64,000 bases of DNA from Denitratisoma oestradiolicum (GTDB taxonomy: Bacteria > Pseudomonadota > Gammaproteobacteria > Burkholderiales > Rhodocyclaceae): assembly GCF_902813185.1 (NCBI RefSeq), contig NZ_LR778301.1, positions 2,480,001 through 2,544,000 of the forward strand, in the 5' to 3' direction. The notes below the pieces were generated by a model. That model did not search any database, was not told the origin of the DNA, and saw only the letters and a program-made list of their open reading frames with translations. The first letter of the stretch is position 1; each line of letters begins with the position of its first letter. Positions 15,841 through 57,822 of this stretch are shown one piece after another. The translations under genes were made by a program, and so were the position numbers.

Positions 15841-15856
15841 AGCAAGAGATAGGCCA
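15841..15856 (-). promoter_or_regulatory. Sigma-54 promoter of the hyd/CoA-transferase operon
   Basis: On the minus strand TGGCCTATCTCTTGCT gives GG at -24 and GC at -12 with exactly 10 bases between. It lies 39 bp upstream of the CoA transferase start. Five further genes in the window carry the same element. Confidence 0.8.
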
Positions 15857-15956
15857 GCTACACTAACGCCACAAGAGACTGATTAATATACATTTTTTAT
15901 TTAATACTATTTTGACATATATCTTTTTGTTCAAATGGCACACCGTAATGTGCAGT

Positions 15957-15974
15957 TGAAACACTCATGAAACA
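15957..15974. promoter_or_regulatory. Paired TGAAACA upstream activator site (hyd/tonB)
   Basis: TGAAACA at 15957-15963 and again at 15968-15974, 11 bp (one helical turn) start to start. It lies about 100-120 bp above the minus-strand sigma-54 promoter and about 225 bp above the plus-strand one at 16197, so it may serve both. The same heptamer pair recurs ahead of four other sigma-54 promoters. Confidence 0.65.
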
Positions 15975-16088
15975 TCCCGAATGTGCGCAATCTTCAAAAC
16001 AGTTTTACGTGCACAGAACCCTTAAAGACATCTATCCCGTCTGTCATCAATTCTTCGTAAAGGAAGTTTCAGCGTATGTGGCAAACCC

Positions 16089-16107
16089 ACCACGGCTGAG
16101 CCGTGGT
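16089..16107. repeat. Palindromic hairpin in the 15.8-16.3 kb intergenic region
   Basis: ACCACGGC-TGA-GCCGTGGT is a perfect 8-bp stem with a 3-base loop. It resembles REP or IS200-type end hairpins, but no transposase is present. The remaining bases of this 470-bp gap hold the two sigma-54 promoters and the shared activator site; I see no gene in it. Confidence 0.5.
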
Positions 16108-16196
16108 CATATCGCCACCCACTAGCAAAGGACAATAGTCGCAATATTCCAAATACACATCACCTTGAGCGTAACTGAACGCCTTAAATGGATCTC

Positions 16197-16212
16197 TGGC
16201 CTGCTTATTGCT
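16197..16212 (+). promoter_or_regulatory. Sigma-54 promoter of the tonB-exbBD operon
   Basis: TGGCCTGCTTATTGCT has GG at -24 and GC at -12 with 10 bases between, 59 bp ahead of the tonB ATG. It faces away from the hyd promoter at 15841. Confidence 0.75.
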
Positions 16213-16270
16213 GTTAGGTAAATTGAATTCAGCCTATGTTTCGCAATATCGATGAGCACGAGGAGAAGGG

Positions 16271-16888
16271 ATGTATTTTCAGCCCCAGAAAAACGCATCG
16301 AGGAGGATGACGAGCATCGGCTTGGTTGTTCTGCTTCATATCGGCATTGGGTATGCATTGCTCACGGGCCTGCATCGGGCCGTGGTTGACGTGATTCGCG
16401 ACCCGTTTGACGTCAACATTATCGAGGACGCGAAGAAGCCGCCCCCCGACAAACCGCCCCCCCCGCCGCCGAAGAATCTTCCGCCCCCGCCCCCGCCGCC
16501 GCAGGTTCCCATGCCTGAAGTCGCCTTGCCCGCGGCAACGGTGTCCTCGGGGCCGACCATCACGGTCGCGACCAAGCAGGAGGCGCCCCCGCCCCCGGTC
16601 GCCAGCGTGCGTGTCCCGCCAGTCGTCAGCGCCAGTTCCTGTACCAAACCGGAATACCCTGCCGCATCCAAGCGACTGGAGGAAGAAGGTACGGTTGTAT
16701 TGAACTTCCTGATCGACGTCGACGGTCGCGTGGTTCAAGGCAAGGTGGAGGGAACCAGTGGTTTTGAGCGCCTCGACAAAGCAGCGCTCGATGCTCTAGG
16801 TCGTTGTCAGTTCAAGCCTGGCTCTGTCGATGGCAGACCCGAGCAGGCCTGGGCAAAAATGAAATACACCTTCAAGCTCCAGAACTAA
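16271..16888 (+). CDS. tonB: Energy transducer TonB
   Basis: A 205-residue inner-membrane protein that carries proton-motive energy from ExbB-ExbD to outer-membrane receptors. It has one N-terminal membrane segment (TSIGLVVLLHIGIGYALLTG, about residues 16-35), a long Pro-rich periplasmic spacer (residues 57-80 and around 105) and a C-terminal TonB domain (YPAASKRLEEEGTVVLNFLI ... MKYTFKL). A GGAG-type site precedes ATG 16271. exbB, exbD and a second exbD follow, the layout seen in xanthomonads. Sigma-54 control suggests a TonB system dedicated to the catabolic substrate, with the receptors at 25930 and 44536 as partners. Confidence 0.93.
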   Translation: MYFQPQKNASRRMTSIGLVVLLHIGIGYALLTGLHRAVVDVIRDPFDVNIIEDAKKPPPDKPPPPPPKNLPPPPPPPQVPMPEVALPAATVSSGPTITVATKQEAPPPPVASVRVPPVVSASSCTKPEYPAASKRLEEEGTVVLNFLIDVDGRVVQGKVEGTSGFERLDKAALDALGRCQFKPGSVDGRPEQAWAKMKYTFKLQN

Positions 16889-16948
16889 CGGGGCACTTTC
16901 TAGATATACATTTTGTAGTTTGTTTATTCAGTCGGAGGAGACTTGCCC

Positions 16949-17791
16949 ATGACTAACCGGTTCACTGCATTCATCGCGGCCGTGCTGATCGCCAGCGCTA
17001 CTGCCACCCCCCTGTTGATGTCCCAAGCGGCCCACGCCGAAGAGACGCCCGCTGCCGCCGCCCCCGCCGCTGCTGCCGAACCGGCCGCACCCGCCGCCGT
17101 GACGGAAAAGGCCACCGTGGATAACCCCTATGGCCTGGAAGCCCTCTGGATGCAGGGTGACTTCGTGGCCAAGACCGTGCTGATCACCCTGGTCATCATG
17201 TCCATGGGGACCTGGTACATTGGCATCGCCAAGTACATTGAGCAGGCCAAGCTGCTGAAGCAGGGCAAGGCCGCCAACGAAGCCTTCTGGCGGGCCGGTT
17301 CGGTCCAGTCGGGTCTCAGTGAAATGGCCGATGACTCCGCGTTCCGCTTCATTGCGGAAAACGGCGTCAAGGCGGCGACGCACCACGAAGGCACCATGGT
17401 CGAACAGATCGACCTCAACGAATGGGTGACGATGTCGATCCAGCGCGCCGTGGAAGGCGTGGCCAACCGCATGCAGGGTGGCCTGGCCTTCCTCGCCACC
17501 GTGGGTTCCACGGCCCCCTTCGTTGGCTTGTTCGGTACCGTGTGGGGCATCTATCATGCCCTGACCGCCATCGGCATCGCCGGCCAGGCCTCCATCGACA
17601 AGGTGGCCGGCCCCGTGGGTGAAGCGCTGATCATGACCGCCATCGGTCTGGCCGTGGCCGTGCCCGCCGTGCTGGGCTACAACTGGCTGGTCCGTCGCAA
17701 CAAGATCGCCATGGACTTGGTCAAGACCTTCGGTGCCGACCTGCACATGGTGCTGATCAGCGGCGGCAACAAGTCCAAGAAGGGTGCCTGA
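16949..17791 (+). CDS. exbB: ExbB proton channel subunit (MotA/TolQ/ExbB family)
   Basis: A 280-residue protein with a cleavable-type N-terminal signal (RFTAFIAAVLIASATATPLL ... AHAEE) and an Ala/Pro-rich stretch, then three membrane helices around residues 60-85, 170-195 and 215-240. The conserved channel part reads GLAFLATVGSTAPFVGLFGT and ALIMTAIGLAVAVPAVLGYN. ATG 16949 is used because GGAGGAG stands 8 bases before it; a TTG two codons earlier is less likely. It forms the pentameric core of the TonB motor. It is followed without gap by exbD. Confidence 0.95.
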   Translation: MTNRFTAFIAAVLIASATATPLLMSQAAHAEETPAAAAPAAAAEPAAPAAVTEKATVDNPYGLEALWMQGDFVAKTVLITLVIMSMGTWYIGIAKYIEQAKLLKQGKAANEAFWRAGSVQSGLSEMADDSAFRFIAENGVKAATHHEGTMVEQIDLNEWVTMSIQRAVEGVANRMQGGLAFLATVGSTAPFVGLFGTVWGIYHALTAIGIAGQASIDKVAGPVGEALIMTAIGLAVAVPAVLGYNWLVRRNKIAMDLVKTFGADLHMVLISGGNKSKKGA

Positions 17792-17793
17792 TA

Positions 17794-18225
17794 ATGGCCA
17801 TGAACGTCGGTCCCGCGGAGGGGAGTGACGAAGACGAGGTGGTGTCGGCTATCAACACCACCCCGTTGGTGGATGTGATGCTGGTGCTGCTGATCATCTT
17901 CCTGATCACCATCCCGGTTGTGACCCAGTCCATCCAGGTGCAGCTGCCGAACGAACGCAACATCGCAACGCAGACCAAACCGGAAAACGTGGTGATCGCC
18001 GTCGACAGCAATGCCAACATCTACTGGAACACCACCCGGGTCAGCAATGACGAGTTGCTCTCCCGGCTCAAGGAAGTCTCGGTGATGGTGCCTCAGCCCG
18101 AGGTCCATATCCGCGGCGACCAGTTTGGTGACTACGAAGGGGTGGGCAAGGTGGTGGTGGCCTGTCAGCGAGCCGGCATCGTGAAGATTGGCTTCATTAC
18201 CGAGCCGGTCAATCAAGGCGGCTGA
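17794..18225 (+). CDS. exbD: ExbD biopolymer transport protein, first copy
   Basis: A 143-residue protein with one N-terminal membrane helix (VMLVLLIIFLITIPVVTQS) preceded by INTTPLVD, whose Asp is the conserved proton-carrying residue. The periplasmic domain (VVIAVDSNANIYWNTTRVSN, VHIRGDQFGDYEGVGKVVVA) is that of ExbD/TolR. It starts 3 bases after the exbB stop. A second ExbD follows; the two may form a heterodimer, as in systems with exbD1-exbD2. Confidence 0.94.
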   Translation: MAMNVGPAEGSDEDEVVSAINTTPLVDVMLVLLIIFLITIPVVTQSIQVQLPNERNIATQTKPENVVIAVDSNANIYWNTTRVSNDELLSRLKEVSVMVPQPEVHIRGDQFGDYEGVGKVVVACQRAGIVKIGFITEPVNQGG

Positions 18226-18251
18226 TTTTCCCCGAAAGGAACTCGCAGACT

Positions 18252-18677
18252 ATGGGAATGAACGTCGGTTCCAGCAGTTCGAAGGATTTGGACGTGGTGG
18301 TGGACATCAACACCACGCCCCTCATCGACGTGATGCTGGTGCTCCTCATCATGCTGATCATCACCATCCCGATTCAGACACATGCGGTGAAGATCAACAT
18401 GCCGGTCAATAGCCCGCCAAAATCGGACAAGCCGCCTGTTGTTGTGAAGTTGAACATCGATGCAGAAGGCGTGATCCACTGGAATGACGAAGTGATTCCC
18501 GACAAAGCATTGCTGCAAACACGCTTCCAGCAAATCCTTGCCGAGCCGGAAGTCCCTGAAGTCCATCTACGCCCCGACCGTGGCGCAAAGTACAAGGTCG
18601 TGGCCATGGTGCTTGCCAGTGCACAGCGTTTAGGCGTGACCAAAATCGGCATCGTCGGTGGCGAGCAATTCATGTAG
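18252..18677 (+). CDS. exbD: ExbD biopolymer transport protein, second copy
   Basis: A 141-residue ExbD with the same plan as the gene before it: INTTPLIDVMLVLLIMLIIT with the proton-path Asp, then a periplasmic domain (VVVKLNIDAEGVIHWND, VHLRPDRGAKYKVVAMVLAS). It differs from copy 1 through most of its periplasmic part, so the pair is an old duplication. GAAAGGAAC stands ahead of ATG 18252. It belongs to the tonB operon. Confidence 0.94.
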   Translation: MGMNVGSSSSKDLDVVVDINTTPLIDVMLVLLIMLIITIPIQTHAVKINMPVNSPPKSDKPPVVVKLNIDAEGVIHWNDEVIPDKALLQTRFQQILAEPEVPEVHLRPDRGAKYKVVAMVLASAQRLGVTKIGIVGGEQFM

Positions 18678-18717
18678 TTCCGCCTCAGTGACACGTCAAT
18701 AATAACCAGGAGGAAAT

Positions 18718-19317
18718 GTGAAAAATAAATTTGTCCAGTCCATAGTTTTGCTCAGCGGACTTTGGTGCAGCCTTGTCGCCATCACAGCCACCGCCGCCCC
18801 GGTGGAGACGGATCAACGGATTCCCGTGGATGTCCGTCGCACTACCCTACTGGTGCGAGATATAGACAAGTCACTGCCTCTATATAGGGATGCTTTGGGA
18901 ATGAAGGTCGTCTATGACCAGCAAATCGGTGACTCCCTTGGCAGCAACATTCCTCCAACCATTCGATTGGTGCTGTTGCGAGCCAATGACAACTATGTAG
19001 GTCTGTTAGGTCTGATGCAGCGCCTTGACGATCACACCAGTCCCCCACCCGAATTAAGAAAACCCCGGGCCGGTAATCCCATCGTGGTTATCAACGCTAG
19101 TGACCTTGAAGAGCGTTTTGAAAGAGTCCGCTCTACACCTGGCGTGACTGTTGAAACACCACCAACTCGTATCGAATATCCCTCTCCCGGAGGCACTTCA
19201 ATCCCGGTGTTGTTCAGCGCAATCTACGATCCCGACGGCTTCTTTATTGAAGTTAACAAGTTGCTTGGGGCACCGGCTGGAACCCAGGCCTCGGGCAACG
19301 AAAACAACAAGCCGTAA
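18718..19317 (+). CDS. Exported VOC-family (glyoxalase/dioxygenase fold) protein
   Basis: A 199-residue protein with an N-terminal signal peptide (FVQSIVLLSGLWCSLVAITA then TAAP) and a vicinal-oxygen-chelate fold (RRTTLLVRDIDKSLPLYRDA, PDGFFIEVNKL with the usual C-terminal metal-ligand Glu). The start is GTG 18718, as AGGAGG lies 5 bases ahead and an ATG two bases earlier is out of frame. Export of a VOC protein is unusual; a periplasmic binding or ring-modifying role is possible. It follows exbD by 40 bp within the TonB operon and precedes an MFS carrier, so a link to uptake of the substrate is inferred. Confidence 0.78.
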   Translation: MKNKFVQSIVLLSGLWCSLVAITATAAPVETDQRIPVDVRRTTLLVRDIDKSLPLYRDALGMKVVYDQQIGDSLGSNIPPTIRLVLLRANDNYVGLLGLMQRLDDHTSPPPELRKPRAGNPIVVINASDLEERFERVRSTPGVTVETPPTRIEYPSPGGTSIPVLFSAIYDPDGFFIEVNKLLGAPAGTQASGNENNKP

Positions 19318-19324
19318 CGACTCA

Positions 19325-20620
19325 ATGCGTCCCGCTGTCCGTCTTGACGAAAGTGACAAAATGAACCGATCCCTGTACGCTCAACGCTTGACCCTGAACG
19401 CAATCTATCCTTGGCTAGTTGCATTCTTAGCCATGTCGATTCTGTTGGTCACCAACGGTCTGACCACTACCGGTATCACCGCCTTCGACGAATCCCTGCT
19501 TAGAGAATTCGGCTGGAGCCGGGGCCAACTCAAACTGCGTGATCTAATCACATTGGGTACAGCCGGACTATTAGCACCATTCGCGGGTGCCCTAATTGAC
19601 CGCTTTGGTGTCCGACGACTGATACTGGCCGGGAGTTTGCTATTTGCTGGCCTCTATTACGGGTACGGGCTTATCGAAAGCAATATTCACATGTATTTCA
19701 TTCATGCCGGTTTTGGCCTGGTACTGGTCTGCGCCGGCCTAAACGTCTCCGTAATTCTGGTATCCCAGTGGTTCGTAAAGTACCGGGGGCGCGCAATCGG
19801 CATTGCCCTTGTTGGGAGCAGTCTCGGGGGCGTCATATTCCCACCGATCGTGCTGGCCCTCATCGACAGCGGTGGCTGGCGCGGTGGCTTCCAAATGCTG
19901 GCCGCCGCAGCACTATTACTGTTCGCCGCGGCTTACATAATCGTCCGACGTCCTGAAGAACGTGGATTAAAACCCCTAGGTGCAGAAGACACCCAATCGG
20001 CTACGTCAAAAACCACCAATAACGCAAATGACGTGCGCTATCGTGATGCACTTCGGACGCGAAGTTTCTGGGCACTCGCATTCGTTGCAATGACCACTTT
20101 CTACTCCATCCTTGCAATGGCCTCGCATCTTTTTCTGCACCTCCGTGACATCGGATTTGATCCAAAAACCGCGGGTAGTGGCCTCTCTATATTGTTCGGA
20201 CTCGGGCTAACTAGCAAGTTTTTCTTCGGTTTCATCTCTGACCTAATCAATCCCAAAAAAGTTTTTATCGCGAATGTCACGGTAATGCTTATCGGCATAC
20301 TGACACTCGCCACATTCAACAGGGATCTAATTTGGATCGGTATCGTAGTCACTGGCTTTGGCTGGGGAGGACTCTATACAATGATTCAACTCCAGGCGGT
20401 CAATAATTTTGGCGTTACTGATGCAGGAAAAATCTTAGGGACCATCACAATGCTGGACTCCATCGGCGGTGGTCTCGGAATTTGGCTTACAGGAATTTTA
20501 TTTGATCGCTATGGTAGTTATCACATTCCATTCTATGTATTGAGCCTACTCCTTTCCCTTGCTCTCATGGCGTCATTCTTCGTACGAAAGGAAGTTGGAC
20601 GCATTTCCCATAGGCGTTGA
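19325..20620 (+). CDS. MFS transporter
   Basis: A 431-residue inner-membrane carrier with 12 predicted helices. It has the oxalate/formate or monocarboxylate-type start (WLVAFLAMSILLVTNGLTTT), the MFS loop motif DRFGVRRLILAG after helix 2 and a central loop around residue 210. ATG 19325 lies 8 bp after the VOC gene; ATG 19361 is also possible, giving 419 residues. Last gene of the sigma-54 tonB operon, probably moving the substrate or an intermediate across the inner membrane. Its stop lies 57 bp before IS66 sequence begins; the C-terminus looks normal. Confidence 0.87.
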   Translation: MRPAVRLDESDKMNRSLYAQRLTLNAIYPWLVAFLAMSILLVTNGLTTTGITAFDESLLREFGWSRGQLKLRDLITLGTAGLLAPFAGALIDRFGVRRLILAGSLLFAGLYYGYGLIESNIHMYFIHAGFGLVLVCAGLNVSVILVSQWFVKYRGRAIGIALVGSSLGGVIFPPIVLALIDSGGWRGGFQMLAAAALLLFAAAYIIVRRPEERGLKPLGAEDTQSATSKTTNNANDVRYRDALRTRSFWALAFVAMTTFYSILAMASHLFLHLRDIGFDPKTAGSGLSILFGLGLTSKFFFGFISDLINPKKVFIANVTVMLIGILTLATFNRDLIWIGIVVTGFGWGGLYTMIQLQAVNNFGVTDAGKILGTITMLDSIGGGLGIWLTGILFDRYGSYHIPFYVLSLLLSLALMASFFVRKEVGRISHRR

Positions 20621-23244: not shown

Positions 23245-23886
23245 TCATATCAGCGATTTAACGGCATCGACAAAAGCAGTTGAGTCCTGCGCACCGAGAA
23301 TGGCGAGCTTTCTTTCCAGGACAAATGTGGGCACAGATCGCACGCCCCAGGCCCCCGACTCATGAGCTTTCGTCCTCACTAGATCAATATCAAGCTTTGA
23401 AGCGAGGTAAAGACTGGCGGCCTCTCTGTCATATCCGCAGAGACCAGCGATATCGGCTAAAACATTAATGTCGCTGATATTTTCCCCGTGATGAAAGTGA
23501 CCTAAATAAATTCTTTCCACCAGCTGCGAAGCATCCACCTGCTGTTGTGCCCAGTGCACCAGCCGATGTGCATGCAGTGTCTTGGTGATGAACTGGATTT
23601 TTTCAAACTGGAATTGAATATCGAATTCAGCGCCGGCCTCCCTGACTACTGAAAACACCGATTTCAAACGTTCCATACCGCCGAATTTATTGCTTAAAAA
23701 GGGGAGATATGGGATTGTGTCCTCCGGCACATCGGGGTTAAGGAAATAAGGTCTCCATTGCTTGATCACCTCGACTCCCGACAATTCTTGACGAAGGGTC
23801 GCAATCGCATCGTTGAAGCGATGCAGTCCGATATAGCACCAGGGGCAAGTGAAATCAGAGACAATTTCCACTGTCAGGGTTGGCAT
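23245..23886 (-). CDS. DsbA-family oxidoreductase, FrnE-like
   Basis: A 213-residue thioredoxin-fold protein with the CPWC active site (VSDFTCPWCYIGLHRF) and the C-terminal cis-Pro region (GVRSVPTFVLERK). It has no signal peptide, so it is a cytoplasmic FrnE-type protein, related to HCCA isomerase. Such proteins reduce, isomerise or form disulfides, and in some clusters act in polyketide or aromatic pathways. It lies 78 bp after the acyl-CoA dehydrogenase on the same strand. This segment appears to have been inverted between two IS66 copies. Confidence 0.85.
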   Translation of the reverse strand: MPTLTVEIVSDFTCPWCYIGLHRFNDAIATLRQELSGVEVIKQWRPYFLNPDVPEDTIPYLPFLSNKFGGMERLKSVFSVVREAGAEFDIQFQFEKIQFITKTLHAHRLVHWAQQQVDASQLVERIYLGHFHHGENISDINVLADIAGLCGYDREAASLYLASKLDIDLVRTKAHESGAWGVRSVPTFVLERKLAILGAQDSTAFVDAVKSLI

Positions 23887-23964
23887 GGAAGCAAATTATC
23901 CTTATCGAAACGTGCCGTTAGAGCTATAAATGCGCCGGGGGCTGAGTGCTATTGTTTGGGATCG

Positions 23965-48898: not shown

Positions 48899-49714
48899 CT
48901 AACGCTCAGGGTGGCGAGGGAAATGTTGGATTTTTGGCACGAGAAACACAGTAAAGGAGACCAGTCCGGTCAAGCAAAGGCCCAATATCATTTCTCGGCC
49001 TTCGCTCCAGTGACTCACCGGCGGGAAGATATAGCGAGCAGCACCGAAGCAGGCAATGCCTAGACTGATCAGACCGATCACCATGCCGACAATTCGGGAA
49101 GAGAGCAGTGCTTGGCGATCGGCCCTGCGTAGCAAGCGATAGATAAACAGACCATTAAGTCCATCGGTGGCCAACATGCCAAGAGTGAACAGCAGCCCCA
49201 AAATGATGGCATGCTGGGCACCACCGAAATGAGCACCGGTAACGGCAAAGAGCGCCGCTTGGCTGATGGTGTCAAAGGATAGGGCAAACAGTGCCCCCAC
49301 CAAGGCGATCAGCCCGGGACGATCCGTATTGCTCAGCCTGCCCAACCAGCGGCCTTTCAGCCCCACCGGCGCATAGACGGTATGTAGTGGAGTGGAAAGC
49401 ACAGCATGGAGATTGATCCATCCAAGGGCTGCAAGAAACCCGATGGAAATCCAGACGCCGGTCAATTCCAGCCACTCAGGCACAACCCAGGACTGGGCGA
49501 ACAGGCTGACGGAGATGGCGATCATGATTACCACGCTGCCATGACCAAGCGAAAATAGCATGCCGCAACGTTTTGCCAGACTGGGTTTATCGCTGGCATT
49601 GAAACGTGTCAGTCCATCGATGGTCGCCAGATGATCGGGATCAAGACCGTGCTTCATACCCAGCACAAAGGCAAGCAAGCAGAGTGCAGGGAAACCTTGC
49701 GGAAAATCTTCCAT
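48899..49714 (-). CDS. Nickel/cobalt permease of the NiCoT (HoxN/NixA) family
   Basis: A 271-residue inner-membrane protein with about 7-8 helices. The NiCoT signature in helix 2 is exact: KHGLDPDHLATIDGLTRFN (H-x-x-D-x-D-H). Other family motifs are FSLGHGSVVIMIAISV, LSFDTISQAALFAV and LGMLATDGLNGLFIY. It imports Ni2+ or Co2+ with high affinity. ATG 49714 is chosen for GGAG ahead and loss of a non-conserved 42-residue extension. It follows HMG-CoA-lyase paralogue 2, overlapping it. A metal permease in a catabolic operon suggests a nickel- or cobalt-dependent enzyme in the pathway. Confidence 0.9.
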   Translation of the reverse strand: MEDFPQGFPALCLLAFVLGMKHGLDPDHLATIDGLTRFNASDKPSLAKRCGMLFSLGHGSVVIMIAISVSLFAQSWVVPEWLELTGVWISIGFLAALGWINLHAVLSTPLHTVYAPVGLKGRWLGRLSNTDRPGLIALVGALFALSFDTISQAALFAVTGAHFGGAQHAIILGLLFTLGMLATDGLNGLFIYRLLRRADRQALLSSRIVGMVIGLISLGIACFGAARYIFPPVSHWSEGREMILGLCLTGLVSFTVFLVPKIQHFPRHPER

Positions 49715-49728
49715 GATGAATTCTCCGA

Positions 49729-50706
49729 TTACTGTGCGGTGGCGGGATTGCCTGCGCCAGGCGTAAGCGTTGGTGAGGAAAACCCTCTGGGCAGCCCGGC
49801 ATGGGCCACAAAACCATGCATATCTTTTGCAGGCAGCCACTGATCTACCTTACGGCGTACTGCCAAGAGCTGATTCAGATCGATTCCGGTACGCAGCCCC
49901 ATCGCCTCCAGGAGATAGACCAAGTCCTCGGTAACAATGTTGCCGCTCGCCCCGGGCGCGAAGGGACACCCCCCCATGCCCCCCAGGGAAGCGTCAATCG
50001 TGGTTAGTCCCACATCCAAAGCAGCCATGACGTTAGCGAGTCCCTGACCTCGGGTGTTGTGCAGGTGGATGCCGGTCAGTCGCTCTTCACCGATTTCACG
50101 CCAGATGGCCTGGGTCAACGCTTTCACTTGGCGCGGGTTACCGTAACCGGTGGTATCGGAAAGCCCGACCTCGTCACATCCCGCCTCGATCAGCGCCACG
50201 GCCAATTCGACCACTTTGCGCTCAGAAATCTGGCCTTCTAGGGTGCAGCCAAAGGCTGTGGACAATCCGCCCTCGAACTTTGGACGATCTGTCGCAGGCA
50301 ATTCGCGAATCGCGGCTGCGATGCCACGTGCCTCATCAAGCATTTGAAGATGGGTGCGGTTAACATTTTTCAGACTATGGGTCTCGCTGACCGACAAAGG
50401 CAACGTCAGTTTGTGAGCCCCCGCTGCCAATGCCCCCAGAGCACCTCGCAAATTGGGGACCAGCACAGCCACGGTAAGCCCCGGAATTTGGCGGGCAAAG
50501 GCCACCACCTCCGCAGTATCCGCAAGTTGCGGCAGAAGTTTGGGAGATACAAAGGAGCCGACCTCTATTTCGCGCACCCCGGCCGCAGCCTCGGCCTGAA
50601 TCCACTGGCACTTGCGATCAGCATCCAGGATGGTCGAAATACTCTGCAAACCATCCCTTGGCCCTACTTCGCTGATCAGGATATCGACTGAACTGCTACC
50701 GTCCAT
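49729..50706 (-). CDS. Hydroxymethylglutaryl-CoA lyase-type aldolase, paralogue 2
   Basis: A 325-residue HMGL-like enzyme: ISEVGPRDGLQSI, IEVGSFVSPKLLPQLADTAE, AVLVPNLRGALGALAAGAHK, LSDTTGYGNPRQV, HLHNTRGQGLANV and the signature GGMGGCPFAPGASGNIVTED with the loop Cys. It splits a 3-hydroxy-3-methyl acid or its CoA ester. It is clearly a paralogue of 9684-10601, not a recent copy. A terminator-like hairpin lies just upstream (50726-50750), so it may begin its own unit with the nickel permease. Confidence 0.9.
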   Translation of the reverse strand: MDGSSSVDILISEVGPRDGLQSISTILDADRKCQWIQAEAAAGVREIEVGSFVSPKLLPQLADTAEVVAFARQIPGLTVAVLVPNLRGALGALAAGAHKLTLPLSVSETHSLKNVNRTHLQMLDEARGIAAAIRELPATDRPKFEGGLSTAFGCTLEGQISERKVVELAVALIEAGCDEVGLSDTTGYGNPRQVKALTQAIWREIGEERLTGIHLHNTRGQGLANVMAALDVGLTTIDASLGGMGGCPFAPGASGNIVTEDLVYLLEAMGLRTGIDLNQLLAVRRKVDQWLPAKDMHGFVAHAGLPRGFSSPTLTPGAGNPATAQ

Positions 50707-50725
50707 AAGTAACCACTTTCGGAAT

Positions 50726-50750
50726 AAAAAGACGCCATTCGCAAATGGCG
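50726..50750 (-). terminator. Intrinsic terminator, minus strand
   Basis: CGCCATT (50733-50739) pairs with AATGGCG (50744-50750); on the minus strand a U-rich run follows (50726-50730). It lies after the deacetylase-like gene and before HMG-CoA-lyase paralogue 2, and probably ends the operon that begins at 57720. Confidence 0.6.
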
Positions 50751-50787
50751 CAAAAGGAGAGCGCTGGACTCAACTCCTTGTGTTGAT

Positions 50788-51741
50788 TCAAGTCGTTCCC
50801 CTGGGAGATGCGATGTCATTCTCCTGGGCAACGAAATCCGCCAGAATCTCTCCGGCCGAAGCACTCCAGACATGGGTCTGACTGCTGACATATTCGAGTA
50901 CCCGCTCCAACTGACTTATTCGATGCGGCTGACCCAGCACCCAGGGATGCAGGGTCAGCGCCAAAATGCGTCCTCCCTGATGCGCTGATTCCTGGCTCAG
51001 GTAATCACATGCATCCATTACCTGCTGGGCCCAGCTTTCGGCCGAGTGCAGGTTGTCCATGATGAGGAAGCGATCCTCGATCTCGGTGCTAAGAGGCATC
51101 GACCAAAGACTGCCGCCTCGGGTATTGAAGCGGTAGGGCAGTTCATCATTGACCCAATCGCAGAAATATTCGATGCCCGCTTCGGCCAGAAGATCCGGTG
51201 TATTCTGGCTTTGAAGCTTGCCTGGACTCAACCATCCACGGATGGGTTTCCCCACACTCTGGCCGAGAACATCCAAGGACCGGGCGATCAGTTGCCGTTC
51301 GTCCTCCTCCATCAAACCACCAGCATGCGCCGTATCCATGCTCCAGGAGTGTCCGATAATCTCGCCGGCGCCATCAGCCAGTTCGGCCACCAAACCGGGA
51401 TAATGCTGCGCCAGCCGGGCATTGATGGCGTAGGTAGGTACTACGCCATATTGTTCGAAAGCCTTCAAGAAACGGTAAATCCCTACACGATGACCATAGT
51501 CCCGAAGGGTGTAGTGCCGAAGATCCGGATAAGGCATCGTCATGTTGCCGGGAATGGCGACTGGCTTGCCCGTGGGATTCAAGGGAAAAAATTGAGCATT
51601 CACCTGTACCCAGAGCGCCAGACGTTTGTCGCCCGGCCACCGGATAGGCGACCGGTTTGTAAGCATGTCCCAGGTATAGCGATCATGGTCCATGCCATAG
51701 CGGCGCATTGGGTAGTTCAACAGCTGTGCGTCAGCGGTCAT
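50788..51741 (-). CDS. NodB/PuuE-type polysaccharide-deacetylase-fold protein, copy 2
   Basis: A 317-residue member of the carbohydrate esterase 4 fold, of the PuuE/allantoinase-like group that acts on C-N bonds of small molecules. Seen: IRWPGDKRLALWVQVNAQFF, YGHRVGIYRFLKAFEQYGVV, EIIGHSWSMDTAHAGG with one ligand His, WLSPGKLQS and ILALTLHPWVLGQPHR with another. The Asp-Asp pair of true deacetylases is not obvious. ATG 51741 follows GGAG and overlaps the preceding deacetylase-like gene by 11 bp. Two such proteins side by side may form a heteromer or act on two steps. Confidence 0.83.
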   Translation of the reverse strand: MTADAQLLNYPMRRYGMDHDRYTWDMLTNRSPIRWPGDKRLALWVQVNAQFFPLNPTGKPVAIPGNMTMPYPDLRHYTLRDYGHRVGIYRFLKAFEQYGVVPTYAINARLAQHYPGLVAELADGAGEIIGHSWSMDTAHAGGLMEEDERQLIARSLDVLGQSVGKPIRGWLSPGKLQSQNTPDLLAEAGIEYFCDWVNDELPYRFNTRGGSLWSMPLSTEIEDRFLIMDNLHSAESWAQQVMDACDYLSQESAHQGGRILALTLHPWVLGQPHRISQLERVLEYVSSQTHVWSASAGEILADFVAQENDIASPRGTT

Positions 51742-52663
51742 GAGTGATCTCCGTCGAAGCGGCGGCAGCACTGTTGCTGCATGGATCCATCCAGTACTGA
51801 TCGGCGTAGTAGCGTGCGATCTCCCGGCCGGTTGTTACCCAAACATCGGAGTGACCCGTTATGTACTCCAGAGCTTCCTCAAAAGCCCGCATCCGATGGG
51901 GACAGCTGACCTGATAGTTGTGGGTAGGAATACACATCACGGTTCCCGACTCGGCGCCTTCCTGATAGAGGCGATCGAAGCAGTCCTTCAGCATCTGGCC
52001 GTAGTGCCGTGGTTCCACCTTGTTGACTACATAGGCAATGGTGTCGTTCATCTCCAGTGAATAGGGCACCGAGACGAACTGGCGCCCACTGCGCACTCGC
52101 AGGGGCGTCGGTTGGTCGTCGTGAAACAGGTCGCAGGTATACAACCCGCCCAGCTCGGCAAAAAGGTCCAGTGTGACTTCACTGTGAGATAAGGCGGGCG
52201 CCAAATAACCCAGAGGCTTTGTCCCGACGGCTTGCTCTATGGTCTCCATGGAATCCAGAATCATCGCCCGTTCTTCCTCTTCGCTCATGCCGTAGGTGTA
52301 TCGGGTGTTGTAAATGCCATGGGAAAAGAATTCCCAATCCCTTTCCCGGCACAGTTCGATGATCTCGGGGTGATGCTGGCAGAGCGCTGCGGACAAGGAA
52401 ATGGAGCCACGAATTCCGTACTTATCCAGCAAACGCATTTGTCGCATGTGGCCGACACGATTGCCATAATCACGAATGGAATACCCCGGAACCGCCGGAT
52501 AGGGATGAGGCCAGGGCTGGCGCTTGGGGTTCGCTGGAGGATTGAGTTCGTAGAACTCAATATTGGGCGCGACCCAGAAGGCCAGTCTCGCGCCATTGGG
52601 CCAGACGATCTTCGGCCGGCCACGATAGGCTTGGTAATCGTAGTAACTCAGGGTTTCCTTCAT
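51731..52663 (-). CDS. NodB/PuuE-type polysaccharide-deacetylase-fold protein, copy 1
   Basis: A 310-residue protein of the same PuuE/allantoinase-like group: IVWPNGARLAFWVAPNIEFY, YGNRVGHMRQMRLLDKYGIR, WEFFSHGIYNTRYTYGMSEE, YLAPALSHSEVTLDLFAELG and VMCIPTHNYQVSCPHRMRAF, with His residues at the metal positions. It shares the plan of the gene that follows but only moderate identity. It overlaps the isochorismatase stop by 4 bp (ATGA). Close coupling of amidase-type and deacetylase-fold genes points to stepwise hydrolysis of an amide or ureide-like intermediate (inference). Confidence 0.84.
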   Translation of the reverse strand: MKETLSYYDYQAYRGRPKIVWPNGARLAFWVAPNIEFYELNPPANPKRQPWPHPYPAVPGYSIRDYGNRVGHMRQMRLLDKYGIRGSISLSAALCQHHPEIIELCRERDWEFFSHGIYNTRYTYGMSEEEERAMILDSMETIEQAVGTKPLGYLAPALSHSEVTLDLFAELGGLYTCDLFHDDQPTPLRVRSGRQFVSVPYSLEMNDTIAYVVNKVEPRHYGQMLKDCFDRLYQEGAESGTVMCIPTHNYQVSCPHRMRAFEEALEYITGHSDVWVTTGREIARYYADQYWMDPCSNSAAAASTEITHDR

Positions 52664-53346
52664 GCGAGATTCCCCCGGTCCGCCCCCTGCTGAGTCAGCC
52701 AGGCAGAGACATCTGACACGCTCACCACATCGGCATACTTCAGCATCAGGTCGGTAAGGTTGGCGTAGTGATAGCTTTCGTGCTTATCCGCTACACACTC
52801 TTCCGGCACGATGGTTCGGTAGCCACGGGAAAGGGAATCCACAGCCGTGGCCCGAATGCAGCCTGAGGTGGAACCTCCAGTCAGGATTACCGTATCAACC
52901 TGATGCCAGACCAACAAGGATTGCAGCTGGGTCTCAAAAAAAGCCGAAGGCATTTTCTTGCAGTAGATTACATCCTGCTGACGGTTGATCCGTAGGCGGT
53001 CGTCGAACTCCGACCGACGGGATTTGAATTTGATGTTTTGCAGGGAGTCCGGTGTATTGGTACGGGTACCCCAGACGCCGGCGTCCTCGCCAGAGTCCAT
53101 GTAGGCCACATAGGTCCAGATTACCGGCCAGTTCAATTGGCGGAATTGAGCGGCCAAGCTATTGACGTAGTCCAACTGATGGGGATCGGTCTCGTAGGCG
53201 GTTTTGAATTCATCAATCTTGGTATACGCCTTTTGCAGATCGATATTAACCAGAGCCGCACGGCGACCGAAGCCGAATCGGGCCCGATTGGGATTAGCTT
53301 TTACTTCGAGCCAGAGTTCTCGTGCTGTCTTATTAGACATTTCCAT
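52660..53346 (-). CDS. Isochorismatase-family cysteine hydrolase, paralogue 2
   Basis: A 228-residue hydrolase with an intact triad: Asp in AALVNIDLQKAY, Lys in IYCKKMPSAFFETQL and Cys in GGSTSGCIRATAVDSLSRGY, the N-carbamoylsarcosine-amidase-like motif. The start is ATG 53346 (GGGGGAG ahead), overlapping the aldehyde dehydrogenase stop by 14 bp; the frame is open further upstream without a site. It is a paralogue of 9063-9671 with a longer insert after the first strand. It probably releases ammonia from an amide or carbamoyl group. Confidence 0.86.
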   Translation of the reverse strand: MEMSNKTARELWLEVKANPNRARFGFGRRAALVNIDLQKAYTKIDEFKTAYETDPHQLDYVNSLAAQFRQLNWPVIWTYVAYMDSGEDAGVWGTRTNTPDSLQNIKFKSRRSEFDDRLRINRQQDVIYCKKMPSAFFETQLQSLLVWHQVDTVILTGGSTSGCIRATAVDSLSRGYRTIVPEECVADKHESYHYANLTDLMLKYADVVSVSDVSAWLTQQGADRGNLA

Positions 53347-54787
53347 TCTCATTCTCCCCCACAAGAAAACACCAGACACTGCTCGATGCCTGATTGACAA
53401 GAATCGCCTGATTTCGATAGAAGCGGGAAAGGCTCGCTGTTCCCATGCGCGAACCACCCAGTCCAGAGGACTTGAACGACTGCTTGATGGCCTCCTGAGC
53501 CAGACCAGTCAGCATGGCATCGTTAATGGAGATTCCCCCTGCATCAAGTCGCTCCGCAATCCGGTGCGCCCGATCCAGATCTGCGGAAAATACGCAGCCT
53601 GAAAGACCGTAGATGGAATCGTTCGCCAACTCAATTGCCTGCTCTTCCGTATCAAATGGAATTACAGGTAGCATAGGACCGAAGGTTTCTTCACTGACAA
53701 CTTTCATGTCAGGAGTGGTATTCACCAAGATCGTTGGCTCACACCAGTAGCCGCCACCCATCTGAATAACATTGCCACCGGTAAGTATCCGTGCGCCCTT
53801 GGCTTTGGCATCGGCCAGATGCTCTTTCAGGATGGAAACCTGAGCTTCAGAAATTACTGGCCCGATCTGTCCTTGGCGAATGTTCGGATAATTCAATTTC
53901 AACGCGGATACCTCGCGTACCAGCCGTTCCACGAACTCATCGAAAACATGCTGATCCACATAGGCCCGCTCTAAGGACATGCAGCTTTGACCTGCATTGA
54001 CCATGCTGGTCCAGGCCAAAGATTTGGCAGCCCGATCGAGGTCGGCGTCGGCACAGACGATCGCAGCGTCCTTGCCCCCCAACTCCAGATGGCAAGGAAT
54101 AAAGCACTCGGCGGCCAGGGCCCCCACCCGCTTGCCGGTGCGAACACTGCCGGTAAAGCAAACCATATCCGCCTGGCGGACCACGGCCTCGCCGGTGGCC
54201 CCACGTCCCGTGGCGAAACCGATCACCGAGGCCAGCTCGGGCACCTCGGCAATGGCCCGTTGAATCACTGGAACAAATCGCGGCGTCACCTCAGAGGGCT
54301 TGATCATTACTGCACAGCCAACCAGTAGCGCAGGATAGGCATCGATCATCGACAACAACAATGGAAAATTCCAGGGGCTGATGATGCCGGCCAGCGGATA
54401 AGGGCGTAGATTCTGCTCAACCATGATGCCTGGTGTTGCCGATGACAGAGGCGCTCTGGGCGCCAACAGCGATGGCGCATCCCGCAACCAGCGCTGGATG
54501 GTACCGATTGTGCTGTCCACCTCCAGAACCGACTCAGCCCAGCGACCAGTATCGGTCGCCACGGCTTGCACCAGTTCGTCTTTCCCTGCAGCAATCTGCT
54601 CAGCCAGCCTTTTCAGGGCGGCCATCCGCTGCTCCAGGGAACGTGCGGCCCATAATTTCTGGCCGGCTCTCAGTTGCTTTGCTAAGACTGCCACATCCTC
54701 CGATGAGAACTCCGGCATTAGGTAATCTGTTTCACCCGTACGAGGATTGCGTACAGGAAAGCTAGACATGTTGCTCCGATCATTCAT
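53333..54787 (-). CDS. NAD(P)-dependent aldehyde dehydrogenase
   Basis: A 484-residue aldehyde dehydrogenase, complete: IISPWNFPLLLSMIDAYPAL, VMIKPSEVTPRF, FTGSVRTGKRV, the general base Glu in LELGGKDAAIV, catalytic Cys in VNAGQSCMSLERAYVD and EETFGPMLPVIPFDTEEQA. It oxidises an aldehyde to the acid, which one of the CoA transferases or the ligase could then activate. ATG 54787 overlaps the nitrilase-fold gene's stop by 8 bp and has GGAG at 9 bases. Confidence 0.92.
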   Translation of the reverse strand: MNDRSNMSSFPVRNPRTGETDYLMPEFSSEDVAVLAKQLRAGQKLWAARSLEQRMAALKRLAEQIAAGKDELVQAVATDTGRWAESVLEVDSTIGTIQRWLRDAPSLLAPRAPLSSATPGIMVEQNLRPYPLAGIISPWNFPLLLSMIDAYPALLVGCAVMIKPSEVTPRFVPVIQRAIAEVPELASVIGFATGRGATGEAVVRQADMVCFTGSVRTGKRVGALAAECFIPCHLELGGKDAAIVCADADLDRAAKSLAWTSMVNAGQSCMSLERAYVDQHVFDEFVERLVREVSALKLNYPNIRQGQIGPVISEAQVSILKEHLADAKAKGARILTGGNVIQMGGGYWCEPTILVNTTPDMKVVSEETFGPMLPVIPFDTEEQAIELANDSIYGLSGCVFSADLDRAHRIAERLDAGGISINDAMLTGLAQEAIKQSFKSSGLGGSRMGTASLSRFYRNQAILVNQASSSVWCFLVGENENGNV

Positions 54788-55943
54788 CTGCAATCACTCC
54801 GGTATCAGTCAGGCGTTGGATCACACGCTGTTGGGTATTGAGGAAATGGCTGCGCTCAGGTACGAAGGGCTGTCCACCGGCATCCAGCATGGTGTTGGGG
54901 GGATAGACCGAACCGGCATAGGTGGAGGCAAACAATTCCAGTCGCTGGCGGGAAAAAATGTTGAACATGCCCGGCGTGGCACGTTTATGCCTTAGGCCGG
55001 CGATATCAATCTCAGCATGGGCAGCCATGGATTCCCCGCTGCCTGCTTCAGCGCGGACCTCACCCTGGTAGTCCACAATTTTTGACATGCCATCCGCCGA
55101 GGCCGAAGGAATGTCAGCATCAAGAATGCCGCCGCTGTTGGCTGATATTACGTAGGCGACGTTCTCATAGGCCCTTGCCCGCTTGGCAACATCCTTCGGC
55201 GTCAGTCGCGGACTGGCGATTTCGCTGGAGCAATGCAGCAGTACCTCAGCCCCCCGCAGGGCCAGGGCCCGAGAAACCTCAGGGAAAAGAATCTCCTCTG
55301 AAGCCACACTGGCCAGCCGCCCCAACGGCGTATCCACCACAGGAAACAGGCTGTCCTCGCCATAGATTTCCTTAAATCGATGCAAGACATCGTGGGGCGT
55401 CGCGCCATACATGGAAATCAGCCGCCGATAACGGAGAATCAGTGTTCCACTGTCATTCAATATGAAGCAGACTTGGAAGCACAGGCCTGGGAAGTTTGGA
55501 TCGCTCTCATAGGCATTGCCGCAGAGATAAATCTTGGCATCCTGGCAGATTCTGCCCAACTGCCCATATTCCGCGCCATCCTGCTCGATGGCTGCTTTAG
55601 CTGTCCAGGCAGCGATTGTCTCCTTCTGGGGGTAGCTGGTCAGGAAATACTCAGGCAGCACGACCAAACGCAGCTGACTCCCCACAAAGACCTTGCTTGA
55701 CATGATCTGCCCCCGGATGCGGGCAATGTTTTCACTTATCCTCTGCTGCGCCTCTTCCCGATTGGCACATCGATTGACCGCCTGACAGGCCGTCTGGAGC
55801 GCCAGTGCCTGATAACGTTCTAGTGATTTACTTTTCATATCAGCACCCAATGCCACCTGGCCCGCAGCCGAAAAAGGAAGCGCCAGGGATCCACCCGCCA
55901 GGCCCTTGAGCAAGGTACGGCGGACAGATTGTTTTTCGTTCAT
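54780..55943 (-). CDS. Tat-exported nitrilase-fold protein lacking catalytic Cys and Lys (paralogue 2)
   Basis: A 387-residue protein with a Tat-type signal (QSVRRTLLKGLAGGSLALPF) and nitrilase fold. Glu is kept (VVLPEYFLTSYP), the Lys position reads LRYRRLISMYG (Arg), and the nucleophile position reads LASVASEEILFPEVSRALAL with Ser for Cys. It therefore lacks two of the three catalytic residues. Like the protein at 7838, which lacks the Cys, it is exported and stands in an operon with an isochorismatase. The two may bind a substrate in the periplasm or have new chemistry. It overlaps DUF1330 by 4 bp. Confidence 0.82.
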   Translation of the reverse strand: MNEKQSVRRTLLKGLAGGSLALPFSAAGQVALGADMKSKSLERYQALALQTACQAVNRCANREEAQQRISENIARIRGQIMSSKVFVGSQLRLVVLPEYFLTSYPQKETIAAWTAKAAIEQDGAEYGQLGRICQDAKIYLCGNAYESDPNFPGLCFQVCFILNDSGTLILRYRRLISMYGATPHDVLHRFKEIYGEDSLFPVVDTPLGRLASVASEEILFPEVSRALALRGAEVLLHCSSEIASPRLTPKDVAKRARAYENVAYVISANSGGILDADIPSASADGMSKIVDYQGEVRAEAGSGESMAAHAEIDIAGLRHKRATPGMFNIFSRQRLELFASTYAGSVYPPNTMLDAGGQPFVPERSHFLNTQQRVIQRLTDTGVIADE

Positions 55944-56251
55944 AGGCCAACACTCGGCACCGCTGAGAGTCCATCCACCAAAGCAACCTCAAACTCTCCG
56001 GTGTTTTCGCGCAAGAGCTTGGCAGCCTGATATTCTGACGAATCCCAGAAGCGCCTGGCAGCATCCTTGTCGGGCCAGCGGGAAATCACCACTTTGCGGG
56101 AGTCAGCCTGTCCTTCCAGCACATCCAGACTGCTGCCTAGCACGAGATATTCCCCTCCGAATTGATGCACCAGCGCCGCCGCCAGCCGGGCATAGGCCGA
56201 GAACCGACCGGGATCTGTTACCCGGGCCCGAACTACGATGTAAGCGGCCAT
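55940..56251 (-). CDS. DUF1330 protein (dimeric alpha-beta barrel)
   Basis: A 103-residue protein with the DUF1330 pattern: AAYIVVRARVTDPGRFSAYA, GGEYLVLGSSLDVLEG, KVVISRWPDKDAARRFWDSS and EYQAAKLLRENTGEFEVALV. The fold is that of small ferredoxin-like dimers; a catalytic role is not known for most members. It lies 10 bp after the gene at 56262 and overlaps the nitrilase-fold gene. Confidence 0.85.
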   Translation of the reverse strand: MAAYIVVRARVTDPGRFSAYARLAAALVHQFGGEYLVLGSSLDVLEGQADSRKVVISRWPDKDAARRFWDSSEYQAAKLLRENTGEFEVALVDGLSAVPSVGL

Positions 56252-56261
56252 TGCGATCCTC

Positions 56262-56978
56262 TTAGTCCCGAATCACATTGGCCAGTTCGTACTGGGTCTG
56301 CATGTAGCCACCGACGGCACCCTTGAGAAATAGATATTCGCCATCGTCGGTACACCATACGTCATAGGGCGGATGCTCTTCCGGCAATTGGCCGGCCGTA
56401 TCCACGTAGCGAAAATGCAGGGCATCGAAGGTTCCGGCAGCTACAGTGATGCGCTCCTTACCGACATACTCGATGCCAAATCCGAGCGTAAACAGCATTG
56501 GGCCTGTTGCACCCCTATGGTCTGGGGAGGTCAGCATCAAATTTGGAAAAAACTGCCGTCCCGGTCCCTGTGATAGGTCATAAATCTTGAGACACATCGC
56601 ATCACCACAGATTGGATGCGCACCCAGCCAGCGCACGCGACCATCAAGCTTGATACGCTGAGTAATACGCCCATCACGTCGATTCACTGTCTCACAGCAG
56701 GCCTCGCCCTCGTTGAGAAACATAAGGCCTGTACCCTCATAGCGATCGCCAACGGTCAGACGCACGGAACAATCGATTGGATACCAATCGGCGTCGAGAC
56801 TCATCATCACGTCCCGGATCACATTGGGAGCATCATCGATCTCGCAATGGGCATGCATTACCCGCACGCCGTCCGCCTGATGGGTGACATTGAAATACTC
56901 CCGGCCGCGCACCATACCTTCCCGGCCTGGTTTATTACTGGTGTAGCAAATCTCACCTCGAATAGTTTTGTGTCCCAT
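56262..56978 (-). CDS. Uncharacterised 238-residue protein of the degradation operon
   Basis: No signal peptide or membrane segment. The content of strands is high (REYFNVTHQADGVRVMHAHC, YPIDCSVRLTVGDRYEGTGL, FNLDALHF-like FDALHFRYVDTAGQLPEEHP), and the last part FGIEYVGKERITVAAGTFDA recalls DUF3108-type beta barrels. I cannot place it firmly. It has seven Cys, some possibly for metal binding. It lies between the membrane protein at 57064 and DUF1330 in the operon under the sigma-54 promoter at 57807. Possibly a binding protein for the substrate. Confidence 0.6.
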   Translation of the reverse strand: MGHKTIRGEICYTSNKPGREGMVRGREYFNVTHQADGVRVMHAHCEIDDAPNVIRDVMMSLDADWYPIDCSVRLTVGDRYEGTGLMFLNEGEACCETVNRRDGRITQRIKLDGRVRWLGAHPICGDAMCLKIYDLSQGPGRQFFPNLMLTSPDHRGATGPMLFTLGFGIEYVGKERITVAAGTFDALHFRYVDTAGQLPEEHPPYDVWCTDDGEYLFLKGAVGGYMQTQYELANVIRD

Positions 56979-57063
56979 GTTTCCTCCTGTTTTATGTTTT
57001 CAACTCAACACGTCTTCCGGACGTATCGAGCATCCTGTCCTGAATACAAAGCAAGCACATTTC

Positions 57064-57720
57064 TCACCCCAGCAGATGCAGACCGAACGCTGCCGCCAGC
57101 AACAACAGTGCCCATATGATCAAAACCCAGTGGCGACAGATCTTCATGGCCGCAGCGATGGCCACCACATCTGCCGTCTCGGCCGTTCCGCCCATGGTTC
57201 GCTGAATTGCCGCCAACACCGGCGTCATGCTGCGGCGGACCATCAACCCACAGAACACCGTCGAAGCAAAGATCATCATCTTGCAGCCCAACCATGTGAG
57301 CCCCGACTCCATGAGGACTACCGCTATTCCACTTATGGCCGCAGTCACCATAAATCCAACCCTCAGCCAGAAATCGATACGACGTACCAACCTGGCCCAT
57401 CCCCCTTGGTGAACAAGATGCGCCCCAACCGCCACCCCCATCCATGCCAACCCCAGTAGCCAGACTGCCACCGCGCTTTCCCCCGACACAGTCAGCCACC
57501 CCTCGCCAGCAGCGAGGGACAGTCCTACGGGTAACATGAGCGGCATGCAAATGCGCGGTACTAGGTCCAAGCCCATCATGATTCGGAATGCAGTCGCCCT
57601 GCCCGCCAATGGCACATTGCTACGGGTAGCGTGAAAACTGGCGTAAAAGGTTCCCAGGTCTCCGCCAAGCCAATACACGAACAACATCAGATGGATGAAC
57701 AGCATTCCGCTGAAAACCAT
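57064..57720 (-). CDS. CopD-like multihelix membrane protein, paralogue 1
   Basis: A 218-residue inner-membrane protein with about six helices. It begins VFSGMLFIHLMLFVYWLGGD, where the first-helix His and the YWLGGD turn recall CopD and related b-haem-type membrane proteins; further His residues lie in CRHWVLIIWALLLL. A related protein lies at 58085. ATG 57720 is chosen for AAGGAG ahead; the longer frame to 57786 would run back towards the promoter. It is the first gene of the operon with DUF1330, nitrilase-fold, aldehyde dehydrogenase, isochorismatase and deacetylase-fold genes. Electron transfer or copper handling is possible. Confidence 0.72.
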   Translation of the reverse strand: MVFSGMLFIHLMLFVYWLGGDLGTFYASFHATRSNVPLAGRATAFRIMMGLDLVPRICMPLMLPVGLSLAAGEGWLTVSGESAVAVWLLGLAWMGVAVGAHLVHQGGWARLVRRIDFWLRVGFMVTAAISGIAVVLMESGLTWLGCKMMIFASTVFCGLMVRRSMTPVLAAIQRTMGGTAETADVVAIAAAMKICRHWVLIIWALLLLAAAFGLHLLG

Positions 57721-57806
57721 TTTGATCTCTAGCTCCTTATCGTTCTGCAGACCCGCACCGGAAAGCAATCGATAACCAGGCCACACTCGCCTCTAGCACA
57801 GACCTA

Positions 57807-57822
57807 AGCAAACTAAGGGCCA
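57807..57822 (-). promoter_or_regulatory. Sigma-54 promoter of the 57.7-50.8 kb operon
   Basis: On the minus strand TGGCCCTTAGTTTGCT: GG at -24, GC at -12, 10 bases between, 87 bp ahead of the ATG at 57720. Confidence 0.8.

Follow-up and report, generated by a model that had tools for sequence, protein, structure and literature searches.

The 64-kb window analysed here, a 64,000-nucleotide stretch of the Denitratisoma oestradiolicum genome, carries six predicted sigma-54 (-24/-12) promoters ahead of catabolic and uptake operons. Read together with its right flank, the window very probably contains most of a single regulon under one sigma-54 activator, which is carried with that activator on a probable integrative element. 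In the mechanism that we propose, a PrpR-type activator (PrpR_N sensor, PAS domain, AAA+ domain with GAFTGS, and Fis-type helix-turn-helix) would bind GTTTCA half-sites, which for the most part form pairs and lie some 80-120 bases ahead of seven, probably eight, -24/-12 promoters. Binding of a pathway intermediate to the activator would lead to ATP hydrolysis and to promoter opening by the host sigma-54 RNA polymerase. As an outcome, genes for TonB-dependent receptors and for a dedicated TonB-ExbB-ExbD-ExbD set would be induced jointly with genes for breakdown. The co-induced functions would include periplasmic oxidation (amine oxidase, cytochrome c and DUF1838) and a CoA-dependent breakdown by CoA transferases, hydantoinase A/B, members of the isochorismatase and CN-hydrolase families, two LeuCD pairs and two enzymes resembling hydroxymethylglutaryl-CoA (HMG-CoA) lyase.

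A preliminary description of the window had proposed one regulon on the basis of six sigma-54 sites. All six (P1 to P6, Table 1) lie at the coordinates it gave, and these, together with a further promoter beyond the window (P1'), read TGG-N8-TTGCT with exactly 10 bases from GG to GC. Judged by eye, they precede the most likely start codons by 37-137 bases, in line with the 40-140 bp previously claimed. The motif has 12 matches in the window, against a mean of 2.78 and a maximum of 7 in 100 dinucleotide shuffles. Genome-wide it occurs 227 times (108 times for the reversed-pattern control), a density from which 3.4 matches would be expected per 64 kb (Poisson P = 2e-4), and the clustering for which a genome scan had been recommended is therefore present. 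Leader placement and correct direction are combined in six of the 12 matches, which are the same six sites. The remaining matches were rejected as promoters: those at 5794, 19626, 26794, 33731 and 37269 are intragenic (in LysR, MFS, TonB receptor, amine oxidase and MFS genes, respectively), and that at 58031 belongs to a hairpin terminator, of which it forms the 3' arm and T-run. The stricter form TGGC-N7-TTGCT is found 81 times in the genome and nine times in the 76.5-kb putative element described below (1.4 expected, P = 2e-5). These nine comprise the false matches at 5794, 19626 and 58031, five window promoters and the site at 67871 (P1'); P3 (28408) reads TGGT and hence falls outside the set. 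Since a loose consensus (TGGCAC-N5-TTGCW, at most two mismatches) showed no enrichment (48 vs 40), only the tight form of the motif is informative. The sigma-54 gene rpoN is encoded by the host, with one match to PF04552 (222.5 bits).

Every promoter is preceded by GTTTCA/TGAAAC words, and close pairs stand 82-122 bases ahead of six of the eight. Expressed as the start of the word relative to TGG, the half-sites lie at -117/-106 for P1 (with a further one at -215), -104/-82 for P4, -111/-90 for P5, -121/-110 for P6, -122/-110 for P1' and -118/-108 for the candidate P7. For P3, a half-site at -89 is joined by a partner in inverted orientation, and a further half-site lies at -141. The same word is the half-site, GTTTCA/TGAAAC, of the published PrpR enhancer, CGTTTCATGAAACG, as listed in Table 1 of PMC4987338. 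The Escherichia coli prpR-prpB leader, read directly, contains five half-sites 81-133 bases before TGGCACACCCCTTGCT. The published enhancer and this leader constitute independent support for the half-sites.

The coupling of half-sites to promoters was counted in both directions. All 81 TGGC-N7-TTGCT places were searched for at least two half-sites 40-180 bases upstream. Within the 116-kb stretch that was read, such pairs were present at 5 of 10 places, all five among the 9 places of the element. Of the 73 rows from elsewhere none has a pair and four have a single half-site; these rows represent 71 distinct places because two neighbouring loci overlap. The comparison of 5/9 in the element with 0/72 outside gives P = 5e-6 (Fisher test). 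Conversely, direct GTTTCA-N4..18-GTTTCA pairs number 28 genome-wide, six of them in the element against 0.5 expected, and a sigma-54 site was sought 40-140 bases after each. For all six element pairs this gave a site with a score of 8 or 9 of 9, located 76-104 bases on; the score is 9 in five cases and 8 for P7. Among the 22 pairs outside the element, taken in both directions, none has a site scoring 9 and two have a site scoring 8, both of which were kept in the count. The genome contains three examples of the inverted arrangement GAAACA-N0..20-TGTTTC. One lies ahead of P3; the other two (C1:87358 and C1:1157264, on the host chromosome C1) have no good sigma-54 site downstream and were discarded.

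Several other repeated words came up in these searches. The dispersed word GTTTCAATTCGCTGTTTCA was rejected, with no full-score sigma-54 site beside it; it is present on C1 as nine exact copies and three near variants (e.g. 687917, 1534754 and 3304542), and the four copies inspected are embedded in a longer conserved repeated stretch. The sequence GTTTCACGTGAAAC at C1:3993082, which we take to resemble a ParB site, was set aside. A 15-base word that contains the half-site, TGAAACGAACGTTGC, occurs twice, at 28549-28564 beside an IS66 end and at 31529-31544 before the MaoC gene.

The preliminary description had found no activator in the window and had suggested looking just outside it. Both points hold: none of the 59 window proteins scanned has an activator domain, and a PrpR-type enhancer-binding protein is encoded 6.9 kb past the right edge. 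It is one of seven strong matches to the sigma-54 activator domain (PF00158) among ten in the genome, and the only protein genome-wide with a PrpR_N domain, which is followed by PAS, Sigma54_activat and HTH_8. The protein passes the TIGR02329 PrpR model (544 bits vs an NCBIfam cut-off of 499), carries a Walker A motif and has the GAFTGSRRGG loop common to PrpR. Its C-terminal end (AAEILGISRTTFWRRLK) can be compared with that of E. coli PrpR (AANYLGISRTTFWRRLK). The ten recognition-helix residues SRTTFWRRLK are identical in both, while this position differs in the six other strong activators of the genome. As far as sequence can tell, the single sigma-54 regulon first proposed is thus supported by rpoN, by the clustering, by half-sites upstream of all six window promoters and by the nearby activator. 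Its extent required revision: the six window promoters stand, while the half-sites, P1' at 67871, the candidate P7 at 70701, the activator and the element had been missed.

All described promoters and the activator lie inside a stretch of about 76.5 kb that is probably an integrative element inserted in tRNA-Ser, with an integrase beside the direct repeat of the tRNA 3' end. Its two ends are at 334-425 and 75491-76901 (window-relative). The phage-type integrase (L012:11491-12720) adjoins the right repeat copy, and the left end carries a recombination-directionality-like gene (RDF-like Gp3 family) together with YqaJ and DUF932 genes. Another possible part of the element is a 19-base repeat, CACCATCCTTTCTACCATA, present at 471 and 76738. 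The DUF1838 gene was found at E 1e-30 in 1 of 297 family genomes, the source genome itself, and the activator at E 1e-120 in 0 of 2 same-genus genomes. Within the element, a 5.24-kb duplication ends about 10 bases before the TGG of P1, and the flanking DNA otherwise differs between the copies. P1 and P1' nevertheless each have a GTTTCA pair at a nearly equal distance despite the duplication ending short of it. The hydantoinase B gene of the first copy (10608-12480) is divided between two frames, whereas in the second copy (62621-64528, window-relative) it is a single open frame of 635 codons; the frame break could be decay or a sequencing error. An IS66-family insertion sequence occupies approximately 28567-31000, just upstream of the P3 enhancer. 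A second IS66 copy (20678-23110) is broken, with an rve-type transposase gene between its parts.

Table 1 Predicted features of the regulon and of the probable element. Positions are window-relative; operon extents are predicted from gene direction and spacing. UAS, upstream activating sequence.
Feature	Position	Strand	Remarks
tRNA-Ser(GGA)	334-424
Left attachment repeat	411..425		15 bases, 3' end of tRNA-Ser(GGA); copy at 76887-76901, beyond window
Duplication, 5.24 kb	10628-15866 and 62656-67897	- (second copy)	99.9% identical; second copy, from 62656, runs past window edge
P1, sigma-54 -24/-12 site	15841..15856	-	TGGCCTATCTCTTGCT; CoA-transferase 1 operon; probable start codon ~38 bases downstream
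P1 UAS pair	15957..15973	minus-strand words	GTTTCA-N5-GTTTCA; 106/117 bases before TGG of P1
P1 operon	7838..15802	-	CoA transferase III, hydantoinase A, hydantoinase B, HMG-CoA lyase family, isochorismatase family, CN-hydrolase
P2, sigma-54 site	16197..16212	+	tonB downstream
P2 operon	16271..20620	+	TonB, ExbB, ExbD, ExbD, glyoxalase family, MFS
P3, sigma-54 site	28408..28423	-	TonB-dependent receptor 1 downstream
P3 UAS	28508..28525		inverted GAAACA-N6-TGTTTC; one of 3 such places genome-wide
P3 operon	23245..28341	-	TonB-dependent receptor, acyl-CoA dehydrogenase, DsbA family
P4, sigma-54 site	35390..35405	-	DUF1838 downstream
P4 UAS pair	35482..35509	minus strand	TGAAAC-N16-TGAAAC
P4 operon	31052..35252	-	DUF1838, cytochrome c, flavin amine oxidase, SDR, MaoC
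P5, sigma-54 site	44286..44301	-	CoA transferase 2 downstream
P5 UAS pair	44386..44412
P5 operon	36273..44248	-	CoA transferase III, LeuC, LeuD, LeuC, LeuD, unassigned 302-aa protein, MFS
P6, sigma-54 site	57807..57822	-	membrane-protein operon downstream
P6 UAS pair	57927..57943
P6 operon (far end uncertain)	44536..57720	-	membrane protein, 238-aa protein, DUF1330, CN-hydrolase, aldehyde dehydrogenase, isochorismatase, two polysaccharide-deacetylase-like, HMG-CoA lyase family, NicO, alcohol dehydrogenase, hydrolase, TonB receptor 2
P1'	67871-67886		beyond window; exact copy of 15841 site via duplication; own UAS 67991-68008
P7 (candidate)	70701-70716		beyond window; UAS 70819-70834
PrpR-type activator	70881-72869 (L012:6881-8869)	+	6.9 kb beyond right window edge

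The UAS at 15957..15973 is common to the divergent promoters P1 and P2, and lies 229/240 bases before the TGG of P2. An inverted repeat, CCACGGCTGAGCCGTGG, is also located between these promoters (16090-16106). In the P4 operon, the flavin amine oxidase has a signal-like N terminus by eye. The SDR frame (31580-32074) matches only the later part of a short-chain dehydrogenase domain, so this gene may be incomplete or start elsewhere. TonB receptor 2 belongs to the far end of the P6 operon, where the limit is uncertain.

Relatives of the circuit were sought on plasmids and in related genomes. The four best plasmid matches to the activator that we inspected all come from Burkholderiales (Comamonas, Variovorax, a Comamonadaceae strain and Cupriavidus). 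In each of the four records an activator with 47-49% identity is divergent from a CoA transferase (66-68% to CoAT_1, the island's CoA transferase 1), which is followed by an HMG-CoA lyase (60-65% to HMGL_1); the Cupriavidus record lacks annotation, so its gene order rests on alignment. In all four leaders a -24/-12-like site is preceded, at 71-113 bases, by two to four half-sites. A fifth plasmid record, from Stutzerimonas, has a 43% activator, a different operon and the site TGGCCCGACAGTTGCT. Among the genome relatives, 4 of 60 have an activator match at E 1e-120. In G049 the PrpR relative (42%) lies beside prpB and prpC, with four half-sites before TGGCACGCGCCTTGCA, while in G025 the leader ahead of an acyl-CoA ligase carries two half-sites, at -158/-148, and a site that reads ATGC. 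An activator-only search of genome contigs returned 259 relatives; the best 80, which were not used further, are 31-48% identical over the best segment, and prominent among them are records of clostridia and other Bacillota, deltaproteobacteria and spirochaetes. A search for CoA-transferase relatives at E 1e-140 gave matches in 3 of the 368 other genomes of the class, and DUF1838 relatives, with identity below 60%, were seen on 13 plasmid records. Judging from these loci, a small version of the circuit recurs in Burkholderiales, and the island has probably extended it.

A number of observations weigh against a single PrpR-type regulon. Four of the six window sites have TGGCC instead of TGGCA, and P7 has GTGC where TTGC is expected. 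P2 is the weakest case, with one close half-site at -131 and otherwise only the shared pair at -240/-229, and the P3 pair is inverted, one arm being without the outer T of TGAAAC. The identity of the P1 and P1' promoters is a product of the duplication. The activator does not pass a second PrpR model, NF011953 (512 bits vs a cut-off of 703), a cut-off likewise missed by the G049 relative beside prpB and prpC. Among the Burkholderiales plasmids the -24/-12-like site has TTGC in two of four and CTGC or GTGC in the other two. Stutzerimonas has a single half-site, 104 bases before the sigma-54-like site; G034 has only one half-site and a site with CTGC; and the G019 leader contains no half-site pair. 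Promoter and half-sites are absent from the leaders of all three CoA-transferase relatives (57-58%). Finally, the half-site word was picked by eye before counting and the element limits were drawn afterwards, so the within-genome P values are descriptive and partly post hoc.

Some of these observations would fit a smaller circuit, in which only a core subset (P1, P1', P7 and perhaps P5) answers to the PrpR-type activator, the other promoters being served by another activator and having half-sites by descent or chance. The circuit conserved in Burkholderiales consists of CoA transferase and HMG-CoA lyase only, P2 is without a close pair of its own, P3 differs in arrangement, and the genome has six further strong activators. 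However, the direct pairs of P4, P5 and P6 are perfect and stand at comparable distances, no full-score site follows any of the 22 pairs elsewhere in the genome, and the six other activators, besides differing in the recognition helix, lie at least ~470 kb away on the contig. We regard restriction to the core as improbable, although it is the most credible of the alternatives. It is very unlikely that the activator is instead a repressor, or answers another signal, with the operons not co-induced as described. A Xanthomonas citri protein named PrpR is a repressor, with the site GTTGCAA-N2-TTGCAAC, according to PMC12153269, whereas the protein described here has a Walker A motif, a GAFTGS loop and an AAA+ domain and its sites stand at enhancer-like distances. 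Least probable of all is that the -24/-12 matches reflect chance or composition and that sigma-70 promoters under the LysR-type regulator at 4983-5972 drive the operons: half of the 12 window matches are indeed not promoters and a LysR gene is present, but this is opposed by the clustering and exact spacing of the matches, by their coupling to PrpR half-sites and by the nearby activator, and the LysR gene is divergent from a FAD_binding_2 gene at 6021, such a divergent neighbour being the usual target of LysR regulators.

The one-activator regulon resembles the PrpR-prpBCDE system of E. coli and Salmonella in activator architecture, TIGR02329 membership, recognition helix, GAFTGS, the half-site GTTTCA/TGAAAC and its distance to the -24/-12 site. 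In contrast, PrpR-prpBCDE is one divergent operon for propionate, while here seven or eight promoters are spread over 55 kb and include TonB-based uptake genes. Neither an isocitrate-lyase/phosphoenolpyruvate (PEP)-mutase (prpB) domain nor a citrate-synthase (prpC) domain was detected in the 59 window and 10 right-flank proteins, the part of the genome that was scanned. The Comamonas, Variovorax, Comamonadaceae and Cupriavidus loci share with the island a related activator, the CoA transferase, the lyase and a divergent leader with half-sites and a -24/-12-like site. They differ in being small operons, the three annotated records having tripartite-tricarboxylate binding proteins and an isocitrate lyase/PEP mutase family protein; the island hydantoinase, LeuCD and TonB-system proteins have no match at E 1e-8 within 15 kb each side of these loci. 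An annotated TonB-dependent siderophore receptor lies close to the Variovorax locus. Catabolic operons that travel with their own sigma-54 activator and depend on the host rpoN, as would be the case here, are familiar from the TOL plasmid and XylR. The sensor domain of XylR is a different one, its target promoters are fewer, and no TonB system is known to go with it. In open-licence PMC articles, no title dealt with a PrpR regulon containing TonB receptors, or containing a CoA transferase and an HMG-CoA lyase (for the regulator annotation name plus TonB, among the best 12 of 156 matches).

The operon products are TonB-ExbB-ExbD-ExbD, two TonB receptors, DUF1838, cytochrome c, amine oxidase, CoA transferases, LeuCD twice, HMG-CoA-lyase family twice, hydantoinase A/B, isochorismatase, CN-hydrolase, and acyl-CoA and aldehyde dehydrogenases. 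Nearest solved structures were found by sequence comparison. Hydantoinase A is closest to an N-methylhydantoinase, and the second-best match of the isochorismatase is an N-carbamoylsarcosine amidohydrolase. CoAT_1 matches YfdE first and then formyl-CoA transferase, with succinate-hydroxymethylglutarate CoA-transferase fourth and fifth. The lyase matches HMG-CoA lyases, and the amine oxidase matches monoamine and putrescine oxidases. No equivalog cut-off was passed by the CoA transferase or hydantoinase, while both lyases passed the HMG-CoA lyase subfamily model. From this gene set we tentatively suggest, as a possibility that we hold doubtful, the processing of a bulky nitrogen-containing compound by TonB-receptor uptake, oxidation outside the inner membrane, amide or imide hydrolysis and CoA-ester cleavage. 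A bulky nitrogen-containing ring compound would be a weak guess at the substrate. The PrpR signal in Salmonella is 2-methylcitrate, as stated in PMC4987338. By analogy, the ligand here might, as an equally weak guess, be a branched hydroxy-di- or tricarboxylate resembling 2-methylcitrate and made by the LeuCD or CoA-transferase steps.

In kind, the system is a sigma-54 regulon of PrpR type; what is new is how broad it is, what it targets and that it is packaged on a single probable element. It seems reasonably likely that PrpR-type sensors reach beyond propionate, and that a distinct branch of them commands a self-regulated mobile nutrient module for which the host need supply only sigma-54. 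One internal metabolite would then, through GTTTCA enhancers, command the outer-membrane receptors, a TonB-ExbBD motor private to the module, oxidation in the periplasm and the cleavage of rings or amides in the cytoplasm. A complete and testable regulon is now proposed for a gene set that includes the uncharacterised DUF1838 family, and the PrpR recognition code can be traced by sequence outside prp operons. The annotation 'propionate catabolism operon regulatory protein' may accordingly mislead, and the half-site offers a route to the true targets of such regulators. If the element is real, a catabolic trait would here come complete with a TonB motor and an activator of its own.

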